In this document: one piece after another, positions 34,542 through 40,119 of the stretch
How positions within the stretch are numbered: position 1 is the stretch's first letter
How the letters are laid out: each line of letters starts with the position of its first letter
Assembly: GCF_000159235.2 (NCBI RefSeq)
Contig: NZ_ACGK02000001.1
Span: 682,001 to 746,000 of the forward strand
Reading direction: 5' to 3'
From: Fannyhessea vaginae DSM 15829
GTDB lineage: Bacteria; Actinomycetota; Coriobacteriia; Coriobacteriales; Atopobiaceae
DNA length: 64,000 nt
Notes under the pieces: model-generated
Told to the model about the DNA's origin: nothing
Database searches by the model: none
Seen by the model: the letters and a program-made list of their open reading frames with translations, nothing else
Made by a program: the position numbers and the translations under genes

Positions 34542-34613
34542 CTCTGACCTTTCTATGTCTTTTGATACACGTACAGTATACTATAGCTAAATTGTTACAT
34601 GAGAGGAGCGGCT

Positions 34614-36038
34614 ATGAGACACCATAGTGCCTGTACCACCATTTTAGTAGGGAAGAAAGCTTCTATTGACGGTTCAACCATGATCGCGCGTAACGATGAT
34701 ACGTTTAGACCCATTACGCCGCAAAAGTTTATTATTGAACCTGCACGTACAAACGACAAAGGAAAAATCTTAAAGTCTTGGCTTAATAAATTTAGCATGG
34801 AGCTTCCACCTGATGCTGATAGAGTTCCTGCAGTTCCTAATGTTGATTATAAAAAGTGTGGTTATTACGATGAAAGCGGAATCAACCAGCATAATGTTTG
34901 TATGTCGTGTACCGAGTCTACCTACGGCAATTCTCGTACACTTGCATTTGATCCTCTTGTTCGCGATGGTTTAGATGAAGACTGCATGCAAACCGCCGTG
35001 CTTCCCTATATTACCTCGGCTCGTCACGGTGTTGAATATTTAGGTTCGCTCATAAAAAAGTATGGTAGCCCTGCAGGTAATTCGGTGTTATTCAGTGATA
35101 AAGATGAAATCTGGTACATGGAAATTGTAACAGGTCATCATTGGGTTGCGCAGCGTATTCCCGACGATTGCTATGCTGTTGCTCCTAACTGCGTTTCTAT
35201 TGAGTGCGTTGATTTTGACGACCCCGACAACTTTATGTACAGCGAAGGGATTCGCGAATTTGTGGATACACATCGTCTTAATCCTGACCGTAGCTGTTGG
35301 AACGTGCGTCATATTTTTGGTACCGCAACCGATGAGGACAGGCATTACAATACCTCTCGTACGTGGTATGTTCAAAAATACCTCAATCCCGAGCGTACCC
35401 AAGATCCTGAAGATTTTGATCTTCCGTTTATATCTCGTGCGCAAAAGCTTATTACGCGTGAGGATATTCAATTTTTGCTGGGATCGCATTATCAAAACAC
35501 TCCCTACGATCCACTAGGTCATGGTGCTGATGCTGATAAACATAAGTTTCGTCCCATTGGCCTTAACAGAACTCAAAATGCTCATATCTTGCAGATCAGA
35601 AACGACGTTGCAGGGGATAGAGCAGCAATTATGTGGCTTTGTATTGGAGGACCTACCTTTACGCCGTTTATTCCATTTTTCACTAATATGAATGATACTG
35701 ATGCTTCGTTCAAAAACACCAGCATGACGTATAATGCGCGCGACGCATGGTGGTATTACAAATCGCTTGCTGCGCTTGTAGAGAGCCATTATGCTCACTT
35801 TGCAATGCCAAATGCTGCGTATCTTGATGAGCTTAATCGTTGGTATCGTGCGCGTGTTGAAGAAATTATTGAGCAGAGCCGTAATCTGACGGGCGACGAG
35901 TTAACAGCGTTTTTGACAAAAGAGAATCAAAAGACTGTTGCACATACACGAAAAGAATCCGAAAAGCATATGGGCGAGTTGTACACTCAGGCTATTTTGC
36001 TGTCGAAGCTTACGTTTAAGATGGATGCTAATTTATAG
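34614..36038 (+). CDS. pepD: C69 family dipeptidase (PepD-like)
   Basis: Protein of 474 residues of the N-terminal-nucleophile family C69. The short propeptide (MRHHSA) ends before Cys7 in CTTILVGKKAS, the predicted catalytic residue after self-processing; IARNDD follows. Other family marks are SCTESTYGN and IMWLCIGGPTFTPFIPF. It hydrolyses dipeptides in the cytoplasm, fitting a peptide-consuming lifestyle. The ATG at 34614 follows GAGAGGAG; the ATG at 34599 would overlap that site. Confidence 0.92.
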   Translation: MRHHSACTTILVGKKASIDGSTMIARNDDTFRPITPQKFIIEPARTNDKGKILKSWLNKFSMELPPDADRVPAVPNVDYKKCGYYDESGINQHNVCMSCTESTYGNSRTLAFDPLVRDGLDEDCMQTAVLPYITSARHGVEYLGSLIKKYGSPAGNSVLFSDKDEIWYMEIVTGHHWVAQRIPDDCYAVAPNCVSIECVDFDDPDNFMYSEGIREFVDTHRLNPDRSCWNVRHIFGTATDEDRHYNTSRTWYVQKYLNPERTQDPEDFDLPFISRAQKLITREDIQFLLGSHYQNTPYDPLGHGADADKHKFRPIGLNRTQNAHILQIRNDVAGDRAAIMWLCIGGPTFTPFIPFFTNMNDTDASFKNTSMTYNARDAWWYYKSLAALVESHYAHFAMPNAAYLDELNRWYRARVEEIIEQSRNLTGDELTAFLTKENQKTVAHTRKESEKHMGELYTQAILLSKLTFKMDANL

Positions 36039-36286: not shown

Positions 36287-36310
36287 CGCAATACCTTTTA
36301 AGGTATTGCG
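36287..36310. promoter_or_regulatory. 24-bp palindrome at the Trp-leader promoter
   Basis: CGCAATACCTT (36287-36297) and AAGGTATTGCG (36300-36310) are a perfect 11-bp inverted repeat around TT. It runs into a -35-like TTGCGT (36306-36311); TATGAT (36330-36335) is the matching -10 with an 18-bp spacer. It could be an operator, giving repressor control on top of attenuation. Confidence 0.55.
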
Positions 36311-36387
36311 TAACATGTTCGCGAATGTGTATGATAGTACAAGTTCTTAAAAACTTGATGCTGCACTATAACCTAAAGGAGGTTGCC

Positions 36388-36474
36388 ATGCTTGCTCAAA
36401 CTACGCTTGTTGCGTCTGCTTCTAACAATTCTTCTGTACAGGCATGGTGGTGGCAATCTTTAGCTAAGTGTTAA
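36388..36474 (+). CDS. Trp leader peptide with three consecutive Trp codons
   Basis: Open frame of 28 codons, ATG at 36388, preceded by a very strong ribosome site (AAAGGAGG, 7 bases before). Codons 20-22 are TGG TGG TGG, in the context AWWWQSLAKC, with the stop TAA at 36472-36474. Three Trp in 28 residues placed just before an antiterminator/terminator pair is the classic layout of a Trp attenuator leader. Too short for ordinary gene finders. The downstream genes encode a TrpP-like ECF importer rather than trp biosynthesis. Confidence 0.9.
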   Translation: MLAQTTLVASASNNSSVQAWWWQSLAKC

Positions 36475-36536
36475 TTACTCTGAAGTATTGCTGATTTTTG
36501 TATAAGGCTTTCGGAGTAATTCTGAAAGTCTTTTTT
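36473..36536 (+). promoter_or_regulatory. Trp attenuator: alternative antiterminator and terminator hairpins
   Basis: Antiterminator: AATTACTCTGAA (36473-36484) pairs with TTCGGAGTAATT (36510-36521), 12 bp with one G-U. Terminator: AAGGCTTTC (36504-36512) pairs with GAAAGTCTT (36524-36532), running into six T (36531-36536). They share 36510-36512, so only one can form. A ribosome stalled on the Trp codons (36445-36453) leaves the first arm free and favours read-through; a ribosome that reaches the stop codon covers that arm and lets the terminator form. Confidence 0.88.
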
Positions 36537-36612
36537 ATTTACATTTCTTTATACGTTTTTTATCAAATATATCTATGCTCTAAGCATGTTGATATCCATG
36601 AAAGGACTTATT

Positions 36613-37242
36613 ATGTCATACGAACAAGCTCAAGAATTAAACACTCAAAACACTCAAAACACTGTCAATCCTTTTGAAGAAATTACGAGCGATGTATCAC
36701 AAAATGCAACTCCTCACCACGCGCTTTCAATTTCGTCGCTTATTTTGACCGCTGTGCTTTTAGCCGCAGGTTGTATTTTGGATTTAACCGTTGCAAAGTC
36801 TTTGGCAATTACGGGAATTCAGCCCGAATTTGTTATTGCGTCGTTTTGCTTAAGTATTTTGTTACTTAAACCTAATATAGTTCAGGGCATTATTATTGGC
36901 GCACTTGCTGCAACGCTTATTCAGCTCAATACGTCAATTCCTGGTCTTGAGTATGCATGCGATATTCCTGCCTCTGTTTGCATGACTCTTATGACGCTTG
37001 CCTATACTCATATGTTTGGCCATATACGTAATTCAAAGCTTGATCTATTTCCCTTTATTTTAACGTTTGTTACCACTCTTATTTCTGGAGGCATCTTTGC
37101 AACTGTTGCAACACTTGTATTCTTGCACCTCGAACTTGGTGCCGCTTTGGTAATGGCTCCAATTGTAATTGGAACTGCGTTTGCAAATGGACTTGTGGTT
37201 GCCTTGCTGTATCAGCCTCTTAAATTGGTTTTGCACAAATAA
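36613..37242 (+). CDS. trpP: ECF transporter S component, TrpP-like (tryptophan)
   Basis: Membrane protein of 209 residues: a polar N-terminus of about 35 residues, rich in Asn/Gln/Thr, then about 6 helices. The pattern resembles TrpP tryptophan-transport S components, as I recall them (ASFCLSILLLKPN, QGIIIGALAATLIQLNTSIPG). The ATG at 36613 is preferred: AAAGGA lies 7 bases before it. It is followed by a double ATPase and an EcfT gene, so the three genes make a complete ECF transporter. The Trp attenuator just upstream is strong independent support for the substrate. Confidence 0.82.
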   Translation: MSYEQAQELNTQNTQNTVNPFEEITSDVSQNATPHHALSISSLILTAVLLAAGCILDLTVAKSLAITGIQPEFVIASFCLSILLLKPNIVQGIIIGALAATLIQLNTSIPGLEYACDIPASVCMTLMTLAYTHMFGHIRNSKLDLFPFILTFVTTLISGGIFATVATLVFLHLELGAALVMAPIVIGTAFANGLVVALLYQPLKLVLHK

Positions 37243-37400
37243 CATCCAAACAATTCTGCATGTGACAATCATGCGTGAGAATCTTGGTAAAAATTGTTAT
37301 ACTGACAAAAGAGCAGCGTACAAAGCGCCTATGGTGAAGTATGCTTAAAAGACAAGTTAAACTGTCTAAACGTTTTCATTGACTATAAGGGAAAGGGCAT

Positions 37401-39362
37401 ATGCGCGAAGATAAATCAATACCACGTTATGATGATACGCAAGATGTGCCTCATGCATCTCAGCTTATGCCACTTATCTCTTTTAAGCATGTAAGCTTTA
37501 CGTATGCAACGCAGCAGAATTCGCAAGCCGATATTGCGCGCTCTACCGCTCGTACAAAATCAACTGCAGATGTTTCCGCTGCTCGTTTGCCCCAGCAACA
37601 AGTTTGTGCGCTTAAAGACATAAATACTTCCATTTATGAAGGTGAATTTGTAGGAATTATTGGCTCCACCGGAGCTGGTAAAACGACCTTAGCCTCGCTG
37701 ATGACAGGAGCTATACCTCATCATTTTGCTGGAACATTAAGCGGTAGCGTTATGATTTACTCAAAAGAATCGAAAACGCTCTCGCTTACTCAAATTGCAC
37801 GATATATTGGCTCTGTTATCCAAGATATTGATGCTCAAATGGTTGCGAGCAATGTTGAAGACGAGCTTTTGTTTGGTCTTGAAAATTTTGGAATTCCTCA
37901 CGATGAAATTTATTCACGTATGGATGAGGCTTTGCGTGCGGTAGGCATTTTAGACTTAAAATATCGTGATATAGACACACTATCGGGCGGACAAAAGCAA
38001 AAAGTTGCCATTGCTGCAATTTTGGCGCTGCGTCCGCGCGTTATGATTTTAGATGAGCCAACGTGTGCGCTTGACCCAGTTTCTTCCGAGATGATTTTTT
38101 CAATTCTTTGTGACTTAAATGCAACATACGGAATTACCATAGTGGTCATTGAGCAAAAAGTTGCACTTTTGTGCACGTATTGCCGTCGTTTGCTTGTGCT
38201 GTCACAAGGTGAGCTCTGCTTAGATGCGCCTATTGACGAAGCACTCAAGCAACGCGAACTTTTGGATTCGGTAGGAATTAACTATCCGCGTACTACGCGC
38301 CTGATCCAAACGCTTCGTGCGCGCGGTTTGAATGATTCAAGTACGTCGCATCAAATAATGCCGGTAAGTGTTACCGATACCGTGCAGGTACTAGACGATA
38401 TGCTTTCGTCTGTTCCTTCGCAATCATTTGTGCACGATATGCACCAACCGCTTTCAGACGATATTATTGCGCGTATGCATACATCTTCGTCACAACCCAC
38501 GTGTATATCGCGGCAGGTACAAGATCGCTCAAAGACTTTGGCTTTTGAACATGTTTCGTTTTCGTATGCTGGCGCTCAAGAAACGCTAAGTGATATCTCG
38601 TTTTCACTATATCCTGGAGAGCTTGTTGCACTTGTTGGACAAAATGGAGCAGGTAAGTCAACTATTACCAAGCTCATTAATGGTCTTTTGCGTCCGCGCA
38701 CGGGAACAATTTCTTTGTGCGGTACCTCCACACAAAACATGCCTGTAAGCAAGCGTGCGCGTTTTGTTTCTACGCTTTTTCAAAACCCCGATTATCAGCT
38801 TTCAAAACCAAGTGTTCGAGAAGAAGTTGCGTTTAGCTGTTTGTTAGTTGGAATCGAGAAAGATAAAGCGTACGCTCGTGCCGATAAGGTTATTGATGAG
38901 TTAAATCTTGATCCCTCTGCCAGTCCTTTTATGCTTTCGCGCGGTCAGCGTCAGATGGTGGCGCTTGCAGCAACCATGGTAACCCGTCCGCGATTATTGC
39001 TTTTGGACGAACCAACGTGTGGCCTTGATTTTGTTGAGTGTCAACGTGTAATGGAGCATGTGGTACGTTTGCAACAAACGGGCTGCGCCGTTCTTATGGT
39101 ATGTCATGACATGGAAGTTGTGGCCGATTACGCTACGCGTCTTATGGTTATAAGTGAGGGCAAACTTCTTGCAACAGGGGATATGCAAAGTATTTTCTCC
39201 CAAGAATCTCTTTGCAGCCAAGCTGCAATTTCTCCTTCTCAGCTGGCAAGTGTGGCACATGGCTTAGTAAACAAATCATGGACGGTTTGTACCAACTGTT
39301 ATACACAAGAGTTGCTGTTAGAAGCATGTGCTCTAAAACACAACCGCACTCAAGGAGTGTAG
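37401..39362 (+). CDS. ecfA: fused double ATPase of ECF transporter
   Basis: Protein of 653 residues joining two ECF ATPases. The first has Walker A GSTGAGKTT (about 88-96), signature LSGGQKQK and MILDEPT. The second has GQNGAGKST (about 412-420), LFQNPDYQ, a variant signature LSRGQRQM, and LLLDEPT. About 100 residues of low-conservation linker separate them. It powers the TrpP-like component with the EcfT encoded next, whose ATG follows this stop by one base. A 158-base gap to trpP holds a TTATACT element, perhaps a second promoter that would escape attenuation. Confidence 0.92.
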   Translation: MREDKSIPRYDDTQDVPHASQLMPLISFKHVSFTYATQQNSQADIARSTARTKSTADVSAARLPQQQVCALKDINTSIYEGEFVGIIGSTGAGKTTLASLMTGAIPHHFAGTLSGSVMIYSKESKTLSLTQIARYIGSVIQDIDAQMVASNVEDELLFGLENFGIPHDEIYSRMDEALRAVGILDLKYRDIDTLSGGQKQKVAIAAILALRPRVMILDEPTCALDPVSSEMIFSILCDLNATYGITIVVIEQKVALLCTYCRRLLVLSQGELCLDAPIDEALKQRELLDSVGINYPRTTRLIQTLRARGLNDSSTSHQIMPVSVTDTVQVLDDMLSSVPSQSFVHDMHQPLSDDIIARMHTSSSQPTCISRQVQDRSKTLAFEHVSFSYAGAQETLSDISFSLYPGELVALVGQNGAGKSTITKLINGLLRPRTGTISLCGTSTQNMPVSKRARFVSTLFQNPDYQLSKPSVREEVAFSCLLVGIEKDKAYARADKVIDELNLDPSASPFMLSRGQRQMVALAATMVTRPRLLLLDEPTCGLDFVECQRVMEHVVRLQQTGCAVLMVCHDMEVVADYATRLMVISEGKLLATGDMQSIFSQESLCSQAAISPSQLASVAHGLVNKSWTVCTNCYTQELLLEACALKHNRTQGV

Positions 39363-39363
39363 T

Positions 39364-40119
39364 ATGAATACGATTCTTTCTTATCACGAAGGTAAAACGC
39401 TCCTTCATCGTGCAAATCCACTTTCAAAACTTGTTTTAGCAATGAGTGTAGTTATAGCTGCGTTTATTACATCAGATTGTCGCGCACTTGTGGTACTTGC
39501 ACTTCTCATTGTGCTTACGATGTATTCAGCACATATTTTATCAGCACTGCGCTCTTTGCTCAAAGCTATTTTGATTTTATCCTGTGTTATGTTTTGCCTT
39601 CAAAGCATGCTTAATCAAGGGGGAACACATCTGTTTTTATGGATAACAGATGCAGGACTCATAAGTGCCTTGCGCGCGGCGCTTCGGCTCTTTTGTTTTG
39701 CTTTGCCGCTGGTAAGTATGCTTTCGGTTACTAAATTAAATGATCTTGCTAATGCCTGTGTTGCTTATCTGCATATTCCTTATTGTTATGCATTTACTAT
39801 TACAACTGCTATTCGCTTTGTTCCTATCTTTGCGTACGAAATGACGCAAATCAGTGAAGCTCAAATGGCGCGTGGTGTTCAATTTGATACACCCAATCCG
39901 TATAAGAAACTCAAGCTCATGATGCCACTCATTATCCCGCTTTTGGTTTCATCGGTACGCAAGGCCGATATGTGTGCTTTAGCGGCAGAGCAGAGGGGTT
40001 TTTATCTACGTACAGCACAGAGTTCATATAAAACGTATCCGTTCTTACCTCAAGATGGTGTACTTTTTCTCGTTTCTTTTATTTTAATTGCCGCTGCCTG
40101 CGCTTTTTCGTTACTATAA
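39364..40119 (+). CDS. ecfT: ECF transporter transmembrane component EcfT
   Basis: Membrane protein of 251 residues with about 5 helices. The two coupling motifs that contact the ATPases are visible: QMARGVQFD and AAEQRGFY, variants of the usual ARG pair. The start lies one base after the stop of the double ATPase gene, so translation is coupled. It completes the Trp-type ECF importer. Confidence 0.9.
   Translation: MNTILSYHEGKTLLHRANPLSKLVLAMSVVIAAFITSDCRALVVLALLIVLTMYSAHILSALRSLLKAILILSCVMFCLQSMLNQGGTHLFLWITDAGLISALRAALRLFCFALPLVSMLSVTKLNDLANACVAYLHIPYCYAFTITTAIRFVPIFAYEMTQISEAQMARGVQFDTPNPYKKLKLMMPLIIPLLVSSVRKADMCALAAEQRGFYLRTAQSSYKTYPFLPQDGVLFLVSFILIAAACAFSLL

Follow-up and report, generated by a model that had tools for sequence, protein, structure and literature searches.

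A predicted tryptophan attenuator precedes an energy-coupling factor importer operon in Fannyhessea vaginae and its relatives

Organization of the locus

We analyzed a 64,000-nucleotide stretch of the genome of Fannyhessea vaginae DSM 15829 (contig NZ_ACGK02000001.1, positions 682,001 to 746,000), hereafter called the window, which has a GC content of 42%. In this window, a short leader open reading frame (ORF) with three adjacent tryptophan codons lies ahead of the genes of an energy-coupling factor (ECF) importer, and overlapping RNA stems are found between the two. The arrangement most probably represents a ribosome-mediated transcription attenuator through which the charging of tRNA-Trp sets how strongly an ECF tryptophan importer is expressed. 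A real switch is considered very probable because the same arrangement recurs in relatives from the gut and the vagina. The elements of the locus are the following:

36375..36382, + strand: Shine-Dalgarno sequence AAAGGAGG of the leader ORF, read from the sequence, 5 nt before the ATG
36388..36474, + strand: leader peptide ORF MLAQTTLVASASNNSSVQAWWWQSLAKC, 28 amino acids followed by the stop codon TAA at 36472-36474
36445..36453, + strand: three adjacent Trp codons TGGTGGTGG, read from the sequence; predicted ribosome stall site
36452..36492, + strand: stem 1:2, from folding and covariation; outer part 36452-36463 with 36480-36485 and 36487-36492, inner part 36467-36470 with 36476-36479
36473..36521, + strand: antiterminator 2:3, from folding; 36473-36486 with 36507-36508 and 36510-36521
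36504..36536, + strand: intrinsic terminator 3:4, 36504-36515 with 36521-36532, and a run of six T at 36531-36536
36613..37242, + strand: S component, TrpP-like (trpP), 209 amino acids
37401..39362, + strand: fused EcfA1-EcfA2 ATPase, 653 amino acids
39364..40119, + strand: EcfT, 251 amino acids

The leader ORF agrees with the initial annotation of this DNA, which had described a 28-codon frame with a strong ribosome site and three neighbouring Trp codons. It is the sole mini-ORF with three consecutive Trp codons (WWW) and a ribosome site on either strand of the window. A search of both strands in 799,219 bases from relatives and 11.5 kb of the window revealed two WWW mini-ORFs located elsewhere than before an S gene.

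The fused ATPase matches TIGR04520 with 390 bits (cut-off 315) and TIGR04521 with 388 bits (cut-off 330), and EcfT matches the CbiQ family PF02361 with 85 bits (cut-off 25), while scoring just 52.8 bits against TIGR02454, whose cut-off is 111.8. A search of the S protein of the window against Pfam, including PF17099 (TrpP), returned no family even at an E-value of 10. The protein shares 56-58% identity with Gardnerella homologues, many of which carry PF17099; in the alignment of S proteins 9 of 21 members match this family (best E-value 4.9e-8), and the predicted structure displays the ECF S-component fold. The gene products downstream of the leader are thus as the initial annotation had described them, a TrpP-like S component, a fused double ATPase and EcfT. 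The S, A, A' and T genes adjoin on one strand, as in a group I (dedicated) ECF transporter, and presumably share a single transcript. Judging by its family and its regulation, the S component probably has tryptophan as its ligand. The protein called 'TrpP' in Corynebacterium glutamicum was set aside as a name clash: in the accessible part of PMC11995493 it is compared with SdpI, and tryptophan transport is excluded by the authors. A promoter-like site with a TG before its -10 element is found at 37275-37303, downstream of trpP and ahead of the ATPase gene, the scan total being below that of shuffled sequences; from this site, the ECF module might be transcribed on its own as well.

Mutually exclusive RNA stems

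Folding of the region between the leader and trpP confirmed the competing antiterminator and T6 terminator with common bases that the initial annotation had proposed, and added a third stem, 1:2, that it had overlooked. The terminator hairpin (36504-36515 with 36521-36532) has a folding energy of -14.0 kcal/mol (z -5.46), and the antiterminator one of -15.1 kcal/mol (z -3.55); for each of them, none of 200 shuffled sequences folded as low. From the leader to trpP, the + strand has a single listed terminator-like site, the hairpin at 36504-36532 with its T6 tail. Because the paired bases 36507-36508, 36510-36515 and 36521 are common to both structures, the antiterminator and the terminator are mutually exclusive. 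Stem 1:2, formed mainly by 36452-36463 with 36480-36492, reached -12.8 in folding and uses the last Trp codon together with part of region 2. The overlap of stems 1:2, 2:3 and 3:4 thus results in three mutually exclusive states resembling those of a textbook attenuator. The stop codon of the leader (36472-36474) abuts region 2 (36473-36486), the footprint of the ribosome being an assumption. At gathering score, Rfam detected only a tRNA in the window, and no leader or attenuator family.

Conservation and covariation in relatives

One genome scan confirmed 107 stretches, and the best 80 of them yielded 79 distinct loci, with which the locus was compared; a scan of viral_contigs revealed no relatives of the locus. 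The leader that precedes the operon's first S gene contains WWW in 77 of the 79 loci and WW in one (L044), the last locus (L027) having 256 bases of upstream sequence. A hairpin with a U-rich tail follows the leader, 21 to 38 bases past the stop codon, in the window and in all 78 of these leaders. The initial annotation had named a loss of the Trp codons or of the stems in relatives as evidence against an attenuator; instead, 78 of the 79 loci have the leader with Trp codons, and a U-tailed hairpin follows it in all 78. The complete operon, with one or two S genes followed by A, A' and T, is found in 76 of the 79 loci, and the others (L031, L039 and L078) lie at contig ends. A second S gene stands behind the same attenuator in 28 of the 79 operons (L002, L012 and L024 among them). 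In these two-S operons one copy falls mostly in a separate branch of the tree, and perhaps this paralogue has a different ligand.

The residues flanking WWW vary among the leaders, which favours specificity for Trp, WWW itself being the search criterion in that comparison. Most leaders of Coriobacteriia share a partly conserved tail of the form NWWW-R-...-GR, from which those of the window and of Gardnerella differ. The 5' arm of the antiterminator is formed by the Gly-Arg codons of the leader, its stop codon and the next bases (GGTCGA..GAGTC), and the 3' arm by the 5' arm and the loop of the terminator. The tails of the Coriobacteriia leaders therefore look conserved because their Gly-Arg codons and stop constitute one arm of an RNA stem.

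We further analyzed covariation by pairing the 5' arm of each species both with the 3' arm of the same species and with 3' arms from other species, a test in which shared ancestry is uncorrected. For stem 1:2, the mean over all sequences was -14.00 for own arms and -12.27 for foreign arms, and none of 10,000 permutations was as low (63 distinct sequences of 79); the 3' segment of ten Gardnerella loci was placed six bases earlier by hand in this test. The Coriobacteriia-only test, which excludes the window, L015 and Gardnerella, gave -14.25 against -13.32, with 2 of 10,000 permutations as low (55 distinct of 67). For antiterminator 2:3, none of 10,000 permutations reached the value of the own arms (54 representatives of 79), in a comparison that mixes groups of differing base composition.

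Occurrence of the attenuator and its relation to trpC

A covariance model of the attenuator, R1, was built from 61 of the 79 loci, and is not independent of them; its consensus structure comprises the terminator stem only. R1 matched at least 71 of 197 Coriobacteriia genomes, R1 counts being lower bounds owing to stricter filters and to the scoring of 20 candidates per genome, and 68 of those 71 have an S gene. The S profile matched 93 of the 197 genomes and trpC (PF00218) was found in 68, the three samples of 197 being taken as the same, as their genome handles agree. The presence of trpC is strongly skewed, with 7 of the 93 genomes with an S gene against 61 of the 104 without one (Fisher p 6e-15, uncorrected for ancestry and genome completeness).

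In the R1-matched genomes that have no S gene, the leader precedes a TrpB-like gene (G068 and G093) or an NSS-type transporter (G167). Altogether, a TrpB-like gene stands behind a WWW leader in 10 genomes, one protein being identified by TIGR01415 (549 bits, cut-off 518.85) and the remaining nine through tblastn identities of 81-90%, and an NSS-type sodium-dependent transporter in 2 genomes, one identified by NF037979 and the other by 97% identity. In locus L118 the TrpB-like gene behind the WWW leader is split in two ORFs of 202 and 245 amino acids, and may be interrupted. A weak R1 match in L126 was dropped, as no leader is found there. At 5352-5452 of L123, about 4 kb from the attenuator, a yjdF/azaaromatic riboswitch scores 61.9 bits, over its gathering threshold.

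A T-box on the same operon

In the S-bearing Coriobacteriia genomes without an R1 match (25 in number), no WWW leader precedes the operon. In 22 of the 25, this operon is preceded by a T-box core, AAAGGTGGCACCGC or GAAGGTGGCACCGC, and all 22 of these loci carry TGG at the likely specifier, as read by eye from the Rfam alignment of L140. The T-box model RF00230 did not exceed its gathering threshold at any of the 25 loci; at a relaxed threshold one locus scored 56.1 bits (gathering 93) with an E-value of 1.7e-11. None of the 79 leader loci has a T-box core in its upstream sequence of at most 1,500 bases (L027 and L069 having short upstream sequences). The genomes with the T-box are presumably Eggerthellales. 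Since most of the attenuator-free genomes have this operon behind a T-box core with TGG, it seems to be read by a T-box in one lineage and by a leader peptide in another, with an exchange of tRNA-Trp sensors. The initial annotation had given the T-box as a usual control of Trp transporters, and these loci bear this out.

The T-box core was not found in L137, for which about 390 bases upstream were available, nor in L151 and L153. The latter two come from genomes with trpC, and their S genes group with those of Atopobiaceae; a GC-rich hairpin precedes trpP in both, with neither a leader ORF nor a T-box core, and is possibly a decayed attenuator. In L155, a mini-ORF with WW is located 475 bases upstream of the S gene; the T-box sequence lies after this mini-ORF, which was taken as chance.

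Phylogeny of the S component

A tree was calculated from 73 of the 139 extracted S rows and rooted at its midpoint; some of its T-box rows represent one gene read twice. The S protein of the window groups with those of Gardnerella (99/96), and next with L015 of Atopobiaceae (99/98), whose branch is long. The enclosing set contains 21 rows (100/98), in which the other named members are Atopobiaceae, except L018, filed under Coriobacteriaceae. Among 151 sampled Bifidobacteriaceae genomes, the S match was strong in 8 and marginal in one, and the named loci belong to Gardnerella or to 'Bifidobacteriaceae bacterium' NR021 and NR047. None of the 8 genomes with a strong match has trpC, compared with 7 of 14 other members of the family that were examined. 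Because the S protein of the window groups with Gardnerella inside Atopobiaceae, the simplest reading of the tree suggests that operon and attenuator moved together between genera, into Gardnerella.

Proposed mechanism and alternative explanations

The overlapping stems suggest the following cycle. When charged tRNA-Trp is plentiful, the ribosome would clear the three UGG codons, reach the stop codon and should then cover region 2, allowing the 3:4 terminator to form and transcription to end before trpP. Under a shortage of charged tRNA-Trp, the ribosome would stall at 36445-36453 and leave region 2 free; antiterminator 2:3 would then form and block the terminator, the S-A-A'-T operon would be transcribed and uptake would rise. 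With no translating ribosome, stem 1:2 is expected to form, again leaving the terminator free. The parts themselves, their exclusion through common bases, their conservation, the covariation of 1:2 and, more weakly, of 2:3, and the gene order are observed directly, and the predicted elements of this cycle are the response to tryptophan, the actual termination and the geometry of the ribosome footprint.

Several observations weigh against this mechanism. Folded jointly (36470-36540), the antiterminator and terminator are less striking (z -2.80), and the entire leader (36388-36521) folds no better than shuffled sequences (z -0.88, 35 of 200 as low). The RNAalifold consensus retained the terminator stem only. 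Stem 1:2 is weak in some loci, such as L015, L022, L042 and L044. Of the co-varying stems that the initial annotation had expected, 1:2 holds strongly and 2:3 modestly: without the window, L015 and Gardnerella, 97 of 10,000 permutations were as low for 2:3 (54 distinct sequences of 67). Among the 54 representatives, the own 2:3 pairing is clearly weaker than the foreign mean in L035 and L056, and slightly so in L034. Only 13 of the 79 sequences have a 2:3 duplex that is unusual compared with shuffled 5' regions (at most 5 of 100 shuffles as low), which implies that in G+C-rich genomes much of this pairing reflects composition. Finally, the genome of L015 (G003), the nearest Atopobiaceae, carries trpC (PF00218) and a run resembling trpE-G-D-C-F-B, named by eye from translations. 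Auxotrophy is therefore not to be assumed for the organism of the window, and the importer was rejected as a sign of Trp auxotrophy, the relation being a trend only. Likewise, G162, with both an R1 match and trpC, has trpE to trpA (also named by eye from translations). No WWW leader precedes the trp genes of the L015 genome or of G162 (loci L161 and L163), and none is found in the trpC region of G119; thus, the importer is the attenuated unit even in these trpC-bearing genomes.

Among the alternatives, the one deserving most attention accepts the leader and the terminator as real and assigns the importer a relative of tryptophan (indole, kynurenine or 5-hydroxytryptophan), or has the operon serve several S components. 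The second S gene in 28 operons, with one copy in its own tree branch, and the promoter-like site before the ATPase gene are in line with it, and no paper in the openly licensed literature was found that tests TrpP of this group. We nevertheless regard it as improbable, given the homology to PF17099, the regulation of the same operon by Trp sensors of two unrelated kinds, and the strong avoidance of trpC genomes.

Attenuation by tRNA-Trp charging also has to be distinguished from a TnaC-like arrest peptide, in which free tryptophan, and not uncharged tRNA, would stall the ribosome through residues of the nascent chain. The tail shared by most Coriobacteriia leaders recalls such a peptide, but it differs in the window, in Gardnerella and in the leaders before TrpB-like and NSS genes, and its Gly-Arg codons and stop are accounted for at the RNA level as the antiterminator arm. 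In addition, a stall at high tryptophan would disable the terminator when the amino acid is plentiful, which is the wrong sign for an importer, and an arrest peptide is accordingly very unlikely. Hardly credible is a riboswitch or protein-bound leader of the 'trpB motif' kind (RF04312), in which the small ORF would be incidental. This family matches the window at 36452-36541, but weakly (19.8 bits, gathering score 59, E-value 2.6), and none of 10 further loci was matched at an E-value of 0.5 or below; Firmicutes and Fusobacteria are its range according to the accessible part of PMC11109978, and a ribosome site with WWW in 77 of 79 loci is not incidental.

Comparison with known systems

The TrpP of Firmicutes (PF17099) is controlled by TRAP or a T-box. 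It belongs to the same protein family as the S component described here, which differs in that a dedicated fused ATPase and EcfT adjoin it and in that an attenuator replaces TRAP or the T-box. Like this attenuator, T-box leaders (RF00230) read tRNA charging, although they bind the tRNA directly and have no leader ORF.

Attenuators of trp operons and of trpS were predicted for Actinobacteria, in Corynebacterium and Streptomyces, in 2005 (PMC1262725). As far as the accessible text of that work goes, they share with the present leader a short ORF with a double or triple UGG, an antiterminator overlapping a GC-rich, U-tract terminator, and their occurrence in Actinobacteria. They differ in their targets, which are biosynthesis or trpS there and an ECF importer, or elsewhere a TrpB-like gene or an NSS-type transporter, here. 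The word 'transporter' does not occur in the accessible text, and the part of its genome list that was examined names no Coriobacteria. An exchange of T-box and leader peptide was reported for hisS among others, as given in the accessible part of PMC2965389. The two cases are alike in that sensing systems are swapped on orthologous genes, but hisS is a case from Firmicutes, whereas here a whole importer operon is concerned within one class of Actinomycetota. In the openly licensed literature, outside which most subscription papers lie, no paper was found that describes a leader-peptide attenuator for an ECF importer, or one from Coriobacteriia. As far as these searches show, the mechanism is classical trp attenuation and the novelty lies in its target, uptake, and its spread.

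On balance, we lean towards the view that the WWW attenuator of Coriobacteriia is the sensor of a scavenging regulon, comprising the ECF TrpP importer, the NSS-type transporter and a stand-alone TrpB-like enzyme, and not a copy of a biosynthetic leader. In the same, somewhat favoured view, either the attenuator or a Trp T-box took the place of the other on this operon in a sister lineage, and the attenuator moved with the importer from Fannyhessea-like Atopobiaceae to Gardnerella. The predicted switch would shift a textbook trp attenuator from synthesis to uptake, and it occurs widely in host-associated Coriobacteriia and Gardnerella, most of them without trpC. With operon and signal equal and the sensor different, the two lineages offer a clean pair for asking why a T-box is swapped for a leader peptide. 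The leader may also be usable as a marker for connecting orphan S components, and likewise TrpB-like enzymes, with tryptophan. Host-driven depletion of tryptophan matters in the vaginal setting, and the shared operon points to a tryptophan uptake route common to Gardnerella and its vaginal neighbour.

Sequences upstream of the leader

Upstream of the leader, one further element was noted on the + strand:

36330..36335, + strand: possible -10 element TATGAT, proposed from the sequence and absent from the promoter-scan matches

Just 5' of this element, at 36288-36309, lies a 10-bp inverted repeat, GCAATACCTT-TT-AAGGTATTGC, a possible operator or hairpin. A single copy of its core is present in the window, and it was not seen by eye in the 200 bases 5' of the L015 leader. 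A gene for a C69-family dipeptidase (34599-36038; 599 bits, cut-off 250) is positioned directly upstream of the attenuator, and peptides could supply amino acids by another route.

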